Of a stretch of 64,000 nucleotides of DNA, positions 181-64,000 are shown one piece after another. Within the stretch, counting starts at the first letter, position 1, and each line of letters begins with the position of its first letter. The stretch covers positions 3,977,399 to 4,041,398 of the forward strand of contig OZ025889.1 in NCBI GenBank assembly GCA_964019415.1. The letters are read 5' to 3'. Both the position numbers and the translations under genes were made by a program. The notes beneath the pieces are model-generated. The model had not been told where the DNA came from, ran no database searches, and saw only the letters and a list, made by a program, of their open reading frames with translations. This DNA is from Ianthella basta (taxonomy: Eukaryota; Porifera; Demospongiae; Verongiida; Ianthellidae).

Positions 181-3100
181 ACATCATCCCTCATCCTACA
201 AGCACTGCCAGTACCAGACTTTGTGACTGTGGCACCAGCACAGCTGCAACAGTCTCAGCTGGTGAGCATAATGAAAATATGTGCGACTTCCTTGTATCAT
301 TGTATTATAATAGCAATTCTGTGAGATACTAATACTTTACTGGAGCAATATAAGTGTTCATTTAATGTATTATTATGTTAAAATAAATATAATATCAATA
401 TCAATATTCATATTAAAGTGCATATATGCAGAAACAAGCACTAGGGAGCAACCCCAATGAGGCACTGTTCTAAGTATATAGCTACATATATAGAACATTA
501 CGGATCAAGTCTACACAGTCATACACAGGCCCAATTGCTGCTGGTATGTAAGTGCTTCTCTTCATAGTAGATCATAAAGTGAGTGCTGTAATAAGTACTC
601 CACAGCCATCAGGTATGCATGTACATGTAAATTCTCAAAATCAATTGAAATTGGTAGACAGTTCAAAAGAATTGTAGCCAACATTGGTACAGAATTGTTA
701 TACCATAAAAAATTCTTTGTATGAAGCTCTTTCATTTTATATATATTCACCATGCAAGTATTGCAGTAGTCAGCACTAGCCTTTCTGGGGATTTTCTTAC
801 AAGCATGCAGTCAGCCACAATCAACACATCAGTGTATAAATAGTGAGCATGGGGAATACAGAATAATGCTATGTCATGATTCTGTGTCTGATTTCTGTCA
901 ATGTTCTCATCATTGATAGTATGTACAATGACTGTAATTTTACACATTTGCATTGCACTGTATACATAACATTATAACGTAGTGCTGATGCTGAGATGCA
1001 TGATTGAAGTAATTTCTTCACTTCAGGAGCCCTACCCCAAAATGGACTATTGCCAGTAGTGGATATTTCTGTGGTGATAGCTCTGGGAGCTCTGTGTGCC
1101 CTCAGTGTTCTTCTCCTCCTGGTTCTCATTTGTGTGGTTGTGGCACAAGCTGCAATGCTGAAGAGAGCTAGGAAATGCAGTAAGTGAATAAATAGAATAG
1201 GCCAGAATAGCATACATATAGGTACAGCTCCAAACAGAAGTTTTGGATTTGTTAAAAACTGCAACTATAACATTATGCCTAGTATGAATAAACAATATAT
1301 TCCTCATTTTTTGGCACTCTGTTCTACTAAATTATACTCCAGAGATGACACCACAAGAAAATGTGTACTACAATGGAGCTACTCAATTCCAATCCGGTAG
1401 TGGTTGCGCAATGGCATCAAGTGTGCCACTGCTTGTTGCCAATGAGGATTACGATACTCCAACTACTGTACCCTCAAACTCAACATCTAGGACATCTCAG
1501 TCATCAGTCAATTATCAGATGCAGCAGGTAATGGGTCGGTTGTCCACACCAGATGGTTACAAGTAGTTGCTGGTAATTATATCTGCATGAGCGAGTGATG
1601 TAATTTATGTGAGACATCTAGTATACCAGCTTCTGTAAGCGAAGGTTCCAGGTATGAGGTCAGGCTACTCCGCATGACTATATATGATTGTCTATGATGT
1701 TCTACAACCTTTTGTCATGACCTGCTGCTGCAGCTAGTTCACATAGTGCAAACATGTGAACTAGCTGCAGTGAACAATGTCACCAAGATACAGTATTCAT
1801 TTGCATCTCAACATAGCCCAGTGCACTGCATGCTGGTCCTGGACTCTTGGCATAATTATATTATTACATCATGCTTATAAGTTTCCTCATTCTAATCTCC
1901 TGTGTGTGGGGGGGGGGGGGGAGGGGGTGGGTGGGTAGTGGTCTAGATGCAAAGCAGCGATCATAGGATGATGCAAGTTTTTAGGCTAGGCCAGGGCAAA
2001 TCTTTAGTGGCAGCATCCCCTACCATCAAGACTACCAACTGCATGAACAGTTCTTAACTGCATGTATGGTACATATATATGTGCACATGTTGTGGGTGCC
2101 TAAAACAGTGGCCATCCTAATTGCAATCAACATGTTGTTGCTACAGAATGGCATCATTGGCTCAATCAAATATTCATATTACCAAATGCAAATGTCCAGT
2201 TGGGACAGATGACCCCCAAAAAACTACTGTACTCATCATATGGTGCTGCCATGCACACTATACTATTGCATGCATACACTACGATACCTTGTTTACACCA
2301 TTCCCTGCTCCAGAGGTATGCCAGTCATGCAAGGGGACAAAATGAGTACTGCTATGTGCCCAACTCAGTGAGTCTTCCCAAACCACAGCTCTGTAGCTAT
2401 ATAATTTGTTGCACATATTAGTACATTATGGTTTTAAGTAATAGCAAATTTAATTTACCATTCTTGTAACTCCAGACTCAGAGACGGGACCCAAATGCCA
2501 TTTATGTAACTGTGGAGGGGGAAGACAGGACACTGTATGCAACTGCAGATGGCGATGGAAATTTTGTAATGGTAGGTAGCTAGCCTAATGAAGTGTGTAA
2601 GATACAGATGCATGGTCATATAAAGTGTCCATGTAGGATGAAAAAGTCACCTACTGGTCACCAGCTGAAACAACAGAAGCCATTGCCAACCAGATGTCTA
2701 AAGGCAAGTACCTTGAGATCCCTCTCTCTTCAGTGAAGAAGCATGCTATGCTTGGTGAGGGTGAGTTTGGTGAGGTGTTCAAGGGAGAGTGGACCTCCCC
2801 AACAAAGACACTGACAGTGGCTCTGAAGTCACTCAAGTCTTCAGCCTCAGATGAGGAGAGGTTGAAGCTCCTCCAAGAGGCAGCCATCATGGGACAGTTC
2901 ATTCACCCCCACATTGTCAGACTCTATGGAGTAGTCACACTGTCAGAACCGGTATGACGTATAAACATATTGTTGGCTAATGCAACAAATCATGAATTTG
3001 CACTGTGTACTCTTGTTAATGCACACAGGTGATGATTGTTATGGAGCTCTTAGAAGGAAGTGATCTCAGTAGTCACCTCTTGAAAGTGAGAAAGATGAGG

Positions 3101-63442: not shown

Positions 63443-64000
63443 ATGGGACGTCTAAGCTGTTATGGTCTCCTTCTGCAGTTGTGTAGCTTACTGCTCACCG
63501 CTAGTCTGTCCTACAGCCAAGGTGAGTGAGGGCACAGATGTGGTGGTAGGGAGAGGGGAGGAGGGACGCGTCCATGCACGTGGTAGCGCACTGTCCTATT
63601 GTTGCTAGAACTATAGGTTTGCGGGTACTTCCTTCTCTTGAATACTACATGTGGGTGGATAGACAAATGCACATCAAGGTTCATTCGTGTCTATGGTACG
63701 TATTAAGAGTTCCACACCATAGACACACTGCCACCTTCGCAATTTTGAGGGTGTGCGGAGTATTCCAACGCTGTCATTTCTGCCATTTTCCGTCATGAAG
63801 ATACCAGCTTTGAACGTGGGACTCAGTGTAGGCCTTCAATGTCTATACTTACATTGTGTAATCTGTTTGTCTGTTCAAAGTGTACTGCAGTCACTCCAGA
63901 CTCCCTCTCTCCTGATTTTCAGACAACTGTCTGGGCCCTGGATTTACCCAGACAATCCCTCCCCAAGACGAGCTGTCTCAATACTCAACAGCTGAGCTCC
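63443..64000 (+). CDS. Gene H: receptor of the same family, 3' part outside the window
   Basis: Signal-peptide exon 63443-63521 (MGRLSCYGLLLQLCSLLL..., 79 nt, ending YSQ) and the first 78 nt of the ectodomain exon from 63923 ([22 protein letters not shown]). Intron 1 contains the GGCACAGATGTGGTGG block also found in F and G, so H is closest to them. Kinase or tail exons lie beyond the window, so its type cannot be told. Confidence 0.8.

Follow-up and report, generated by a model that had tools for sequence, protein, structure and literature searches.

Results

A tandem array of receptor genes with and without a kinase

The window, i.e., the whole stretch of DNA from which the analysis started, covers 64,000 nt of the Ianthella basta genome (G000:C22:3977399-4041398, contig OZ025889.1; genome of 209 Mb in 96 contigs). 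A sequence-only reading had placed at least eight receptor genes and two relics in tandem on one strand, and predicted gene models together with exon matches bear this out: genes A to H and both relics are all located on the plus strand, with A and H truncated by the window edges. The models were built by hand, exon by exon, all of them are predicted from the sequence, and their lengths in amino acids (aa) count the stop as one letter. The features are as follows:

181-6990, plus strand: gene A, 3' part of a receptor tyrosine kinase, from exon matches (membrane span 1027-1179; kinase exons 2637-2951, 3210-3354, 3840-4046 and 5292-5377; last exon about 6802-6990)
12006-18968, plus strand: gene B, receptor tyrosine kinase of 12 exons and 692 aa with a divergent ectodomain (12201-12680), from the gene model and kinase residues
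22707-25713, plus strand: gene C, kinase-less, modelled with signal exon 22707-22785, ectodomain 23131-23676, linker 25251-25301, and span plus tyrosine tail 25451-25713
26641-29145, plus strand: gene D, kinase-less, modelled with exons 26641-26719, 27591-28118, 28410-28478 and 28883-29145
28888-28965, plus strand: membrane span of D with the Q-x-E motif, IIAVVCQVEVVVTVVVTGLIVYFVTK; the same motif occurs in C, E and G
30908-33664, plus strand: gene E, kinase-less, modelled with exons 30908-30986, 31433-31954, 32108-32188, 32771-32836 and 33402-33664
33904-35318, plus strand: relic 1, with a degraded ectodomain (33904-34194) and kinase N-lobe exons (34852-35169 and about 35250-35318)
37142-44438, plus strand: gene F, receptor tyrosine kinase of 12 exons and 715 aa, from the gene model (PF07714, E 2.8e-86)
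49426-56169, plus strand: gene G, kinase-less, modelled with exons 49426-49504, 49866-50414, 51484-51522 and 55913-56169
50523-50671, plus strand: broken kinase-type membrane-span exon within G, in which the alignment to F and H stops at 50616
59542-62512, plus strand: relic 2, a kinase downstream of G whose aligned frame has two stops and reads NFG in place of DFG
63443-64000, plus strand: 5' end of gene H (signal exon 63443-63521, ectodomain from 63923)

The models of B, F, C (312 aa), D (312 aa), E (336 aa) and G (307 aa) have clean frames and GT-AG borders. The division between genes with a kinase (A, B, F) and genes with a short tyrosine-bearing tail (C, D, E, G), which the same reading had drawn, also held, and H, which runs past the right edge and has kinase exons at window coordinates 66219-72419, belongs to the former; the ectodomain of A starts 593 bases to the left of the window. 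We refer to kinase members as K and to kinase-less members as T. At the sequence level, B and F have the signal peptide, ectodomain, single span and intact kinase of receptor tyrosine kinases. The predicted products of C, D, E and G are type I membrane proteins of 307-336 residues that have no kinase. They begin with a signal peptide and an ectodomain, followed by a linker part from one or two exons, and the final exon encodes a single membrane span together with a tail of some 60 residues that contains two to five tyrosines. Every internal junction in these T genes is in phase 1, as are the signal-peptide/ectodomain and ectodomain/membrane junctions of B and F. Both classes had been described as using the same ectodomain exons; they do share one ectodomain family, but not one sequence, as identity to the D ectodomain is 62-73% for C, E, F and G and about 30% for B. 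A C-lobe of relic 1 was sought as far as F and not found. When neutral decay was simulated at 0.3 substitutions per site, 1, 2, 1 and 2 of 2000 copies each of C, D, E and G, respectively, stayed free of stops, and 139 of 2000 G copies did so at 0.1 per site, a value closer to the age of G (dS to H of 0.25). Because so few simulated copies stay open, such frames would rarely survive neutral drift.

Several further elements were observed in the window. Gene B contains a partial extra copy of its DFG exon (16258-16317) that reads LANFG, and an intron of F carries a 25-bp tandem repeat (43267-43939), most copies of which are about 100% alike. An open frame of 646 aa for a reverse transcriptase (PF00078, 5e-34) lies between F and G on the minus strand (45962-47902). 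A long inverted repeat occupies 48389-48827, as indicated by open frames on the two strands that are almost identical. A DEAD-box helicase fragment (PF00270, 8e-7) is located on the plus strand (56378-56665), past the tail exon of G and ahead of the kinase relic.

The region studied comprised 264 kb, namely the window with 180 kb to its left and 20 kb to its right, so that a window coordinate equals the region coordinate minus 180000. All array matches within these 264 kb lie on one strand. They include 23 full-length ectodomain exons plus partial ones, 14 kinase genes that have kept the catalytic motif and DFG (in the most divergent of them, with its ectodomain at region 44943, no last exon was recognised) and 11 tail exons. 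Seven of these tail exons are preceded by an intact ectodomain with no kinase in between, namely those of C, D, E and G and of three genes outside the window that were modelled as ectodomain and tail exons only; two others follow a degraded ectodomain and two lack an ectodomain of their own. Genome-wide, all 33 ectodomain matches and all 16 tail matches fell on contig C22, and a divergent ectodomain query gave 34 of 35 matches on C22 and one on C15. Three further ectodomain-tail pairs are present on the minus strand near 4.36 Mb of C22; counts for the array are lower bounds, with only short pieces of C22 covered between 4.06 and 4.66 Mb. The window thus belongs to a larger array on one contig.

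Ectodomain-like matches were also seen within very long open frames of 1844 and 1744 aa (G000:C22:4101004 and 4121246), and several genes are preceded by pieces of the two final kinase exons arranged in reverse order (region 65966-66242, 101312-102846, 110138-110386 and 122264-122570). Other dense tandem arrays of kinase-domain frames are found at G000:C3 10.90-11.02 Mb, C11 0.97-1.10 Mb and C8 1.46-1.60 Mb. A search of the genome for silicatein gave 45 matches to papain-family exons; of five stretches among them, four were readable and had only cysteine at the active site, the fifth had none, and none of the five showed a silicatein. Nuclear-receptor DNA-binding domains gave six matches, a small number that suits an early-branching animal without being proof of a sponge.

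It is highly improbable, in our judgement, that the layout merely mirrors alternative splicing, with tail exons serving as alternative 3' ends of kinase genes or with the ectodomains of C, D and E spliced as alternative 5' cassettes to the F kinase. Two tail exons (region 58861 and 120103) do follow a kinase gene without having their own ectodomain, and the relevant junctions are all in phase 1, so such splicing would be in frame. However, C, D and E each have a signal exon, ectodomain, tail and stop of their own with no complete kinase before F, in G the kinase-type span is broken and the kinase dead, and the acceptor of the tail exon at 120103 does not fit phase 1 by our reading. In addition, the stops of D, E and F, though not those of B, C and G, have an AATAAA or ATTAAA no more than 300 nt away, compared to 16% of background windows.

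An acidic membrane span and conserved tail ends in the kinase-less class

Eighteen tail exons were chosen irrespective of any span motif, 16 by similarity and two by hydropathy after divergent ectodomains. A Q-x-E motif (Q-V/I/L-E) is present in 16 of the 18, no more than 25 residues ahead of the stop-transfer charge. In the other two exons, L040 and L041, an intact span could not be recognised, and these exons may be relics. Within this 25-residue zone, aspartate or glutamate occurs in none of 14 kinase-gene spans, seven of which have a lone glutamine near the inner end. A regular-expression scan for spans of the Q-x-E type yielded 91 overlapping raw matches on the plus strand and none on the minus strand. 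Divergent T genes with ectodomains at region 25826 and 41619 carry the same span motif, and a similar tail with CQVEV was found on a separate ENA contig of 1,020,928 bases (P0058). In the predicted proteins, the acidic span residue is a class mark of the T members.

Comparison of 14 tails (91 pairs) gave pN/pS point estimates of 0.47 for the span, 0.90 for the middle of the tail, 1.03 for the first tyrosine motif and 0.58 for the C-terminal motif; as judged from these ratios, the span and the tail end are constrained. YxxPhi motifs are present in 17 of the 18 tails. An ITIM ([SIVL]xYxx[VIL]) occurs in two of 18 kinase-less tails and in the juxtamembrane part of B, and a scan of the F juxtamembrane part found none. 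A reading of the T tails as ITAM-bearing was discarded, with a canonical ITAM in none of the 18. G has lost the first tail tyrosine and retains two. A partner with a basic span was sought in the 264 kb, and none appeared above background (two matches on the plus and six on the minus strand). The genome contains 70 matches to SH2 domains.

Receptors of the FGFRL1 type provide a precedent for decoy or anchor receptors. Kinase-less genes that bind ligand as decoys or anchors, with an ectodomain that matters and a tail without signalling, would agree with short tails that have few canonical immunoreceptor motifs, with the fast tail middle (pN/pS 0.90) and with the reduction of G to two tail tyrosines. 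A simple decoy, however, needs neither a constrained C-terminal motif (0.58) nor a constrained span (0.47), let alone a class-specific span motif, and we therefore consider this explanation unlikely.

Separate histories of the two halves and repeated class switching

Across 13 kinase genes (78 pairs; the divergent kinase gene is left out of the kinase median), the kinase part shows a median dS of 0.13 and dN of 0.036, and the ectodomain a pS of 0.72, with synonymous sites near saturation, and a pN of 0.40. The kinase tree does not track the ectodomain groups A, B and A2 (256, 160 and 500 of 500 shuffles as low, respectively), but it does track the D group with F, the G relic and H (2 of 500). 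A kinase tract of 2,287 bp, 98.5% identical including introns, is common to two genes whose ectodomains cannot be aligned, and in another pair ectodomains of 73% identity are followed by 8.6 kb at 95.4%. These comparisons indicate that the halves evolve separately, and ectopic recombination or gene conversion is likely to lie behind the swapped kinase tracts. B and F align at the kinase exons only, not at introns (94-97% for four of five pieces, 84% for one), a pattern that recombination or conversion does not fully explain.

An ectodomain tree was calculated for 26 rows (14 K, 10 T, two unassigned). The K and T labels require four changes on it, at least three of them on well-supported branches, and a single origin of the kinase-less class was rejected (one T clade, p 9.15e-11). 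Long branches make the placement of some deep rows unsure. By this tree, the type of tail has switched repeatedly, at least three times.

One such switch is seen in G. This T gene and the K gene H are sisters (support 97/92; dS 0.25, dN 0.08); the rejection of a grouping of F and H that leaves out G is weak (p 0.042). Between 49418 and 50616, G can be aligned to F and H; this stretch covers the signal exon, intron and ectodomain and ends inside a kinase-type membrane exon. Exons of the tail class come next, at 51484 and 55913, and kinase sequence alignable to F and H resumes at 59542, in part with introns, but contains stops and has NFG for DFG. The simplest reading of this arrangement is that G was a kinase gene of the F/H type, the membrane and juxtamembrane part of which was replaced by a block with tail exons, the order of events being deduced from the alignment. 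Taken with the swapped kinase tracts, G and the adjoining relics of its old kinase half show directly how such pairs arise.

The array recombines and contains many relics and orphan tail exons, and the genome has large tandem kinase arrays at other places. All this would suit a lineage-specific expansion of receptor tyrosine kinases of the ordinary kind, in which the kinase-less genes are by-products of unequal crossing-over and share no function with the kinase genes. We nevertheless regard this explanation as unlikely, slightly more so than that of decoys, since the T genes are old (pairwise dS of 0.57-0.66 among C, D and E) with intact frames and ectodomain dN/dS of 0.36-0.51, and since divergent T genes (region 25826 and 41619) carry the same span motif.

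An uncharacterised ectodomain with local signs of diversification

Sixteen alignment members of the ectodomain were compared with Pfam and, at the sequence level, gave no immunoglobulin (Ig) or C-type lectin match. Six families gave one weak single-member match each, and those to PF04886 and PF05887 reflect, by our reading, the repetitive linker of a public protein. Matches to PDB sequences up to E 5 numbered zero. As far as sequence comparison reaches, the ectodomain is uncharacterised and matches no known Pfam domain.

In the D-type ectodomains of C to H, dN/dS is 0.32-0.51 in all 15 pairs. Six A-type copies gave a pN of 0.202 and a pS of 0.135 in columns 74-141 (ratio 1.50, bootstrap 0.95-2.70) and a ratio of 2.19 (bootstrap 1.25-5.41) in columns 80-119, although the bootstrap is not a clean test because the segment was picked after seeing the data. 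Outside columns 74-141 the pN/pS of these copies is 0.52, and the kinases of five A-type genes have 0.24 at similar pS. This segment of elevated pN in one ectodomain subfamily lends modest support to a possible role in self/non-self or microbe sensing, which the sequence-only reading had already raised.

Public protein sets contain 54 and 121 related ectodomain frames without names. Among 120 listed frames, nine are on contigs of 731,399 bases, eight on contigs of 202,373 and seven on contigs of 172,271, and these frames on contigs of equal size suggest similar arrays in other assemblies. One other assembly, perhaps another haplotype, contributes the frames P0001, P0002 and P0020: its ectodomain frames for C and E are like those of the window, and its D frame differs at a few residues (98-99%).

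Discussion

A two-class receptor family

We consider it rather probable that the array is a receptor family arranged in tandem and undergoing recombination, whose type I proteins combine a single kind of uncharacterised ectodomain with either of two interchangeable signalling halves, and that its T members modulate the K members. Their most likely role would be that of co-receptors or modulators. K and T receptors would meet related ligands, and the Q-x-E span could drive assembly with itself or with a partner. The T tails might then be phosphorylated by co-clustered K receptors or by another kinase and bind SH2 proteins or endocytic adaptors, such that the ratio of K to T receptors for a given ligand would set signal strength, as in paired receptors. 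In favour of this two-class reading we count the constraint on span and tail, the repeated switching, the structure of G, the uncoupling of the halves, the SH2 domains and the CQVEV tail elsewhere; against it we count the scarcity of ITIMs, the lack of ITAMs, the tyrosine loss in G, the exons L040 and L041, the orphan tails and the lack of a basic partner.

More speculatively, and in our view doubtful though conceivable, the locus may represent an independent non-Ig system of paired recognition in an early animal lineage, in which ectodomain alleles diversify and recombination trades K and T halves so that the same specificity leads to opposite or graded outputs; self/non-self or microbe sensing would be candidate functions. 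If the two classes signal differently, a receptor kinase would act as one partner of a pair, and the array would be a concrete candidate locus for cell recognition in early animals.

Comparison with known systems

In plants, receptor-like kinases and receptor-like proteins share related ectodomains, joined to a kinase in the former and lacking one in the latter, and their genes often lie in tandem. Their kinase and ectodomain families are unrelated to those described here, and they belong to a different kingdom.

Among solved chains the kinase domain is closest to Eph kinases, except for one EGFR entry that ranked first. Sponge Ephs resemble the array in that ligand-binding and kinase domains are reported to show separate tree patterns (PMC6485061). 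However, a Pfam search of F gave kinase models only above cut-off and no match to Eph ligand-binding, fn3 or SAM domains, and the array differs from the Eph and other receptor tyrosine kinase radiations in its kinase-less partners with a conserved Q-x-E span.

The fester family and co-receptors at the fuhc locus of Botryllus are, like the members of the array, clustered invertebrate type I receptors with a Y-x-x-I/L/V core in the tail, and integration of activating and inhibitory signals has been proposed for them; their ectodomains are of Ig and sushi type, and the available part of the source describes no receptor kinase class (PMC12065747). A role in allorecognition is known for fester, whereas for the array it can only be proposed.

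The sequence-only reading was aware of no named sponge system with this layout. This agrees with the open-access literature, in which no paper joining Porifera and 'paired receptors' was found; most subscription papers are outside this scope.

The same reading had likened the layout to vertebrate paired receptors. These are defined by conserved ectodomains, a small gene cluster, an inhibitory class with ITIM, an activating class with Arg or Lys in the span and an ITAM adaptor, and opposite signalling outputs with overlapping expression (PMC3533184). Like KIR, LILR, PILR, SIRP, Siglec and CEACAM, the array combines clustered genes and similar ectodomains with two signalling classes, a short-tailed class with a polar span residue and class switches that leave relics; an activating KIR with an ITIM relic has been described (PMC3533184). 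The formal likeness therefore holds and is even stronger than claimed: F (K), G (T) and H (K) have a conserved ectodomain across both classes, the genes cluster on one chromosome, though in a large rather than a small array, the polar span residue is class-specific, and one switch is accompanied by its relic. The likeness does not extend to the parts. In the array, the members of one class are tyrosine kinases themselves, the T span carries an acidic Glu (Q-x-E, 16 of 18) where paired receptors have basic Arg or Lys, and there is neither an ITIM-bearing inhibitory class (two of 18) nor an Arg/Lys span with an ITAM adaptor (canonical ITAM in none of 18), and no Ig or C-type lectin match in Pfam. 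Should the two classes indeed signal differently from related ectodomains, the logic of paired receptors would have arisen outside vertebrates and outside Ig and lectin folds. The array is best read as a variant of paired receptors that is non-Ig by sequence, with a similar layout that is built from different parts.
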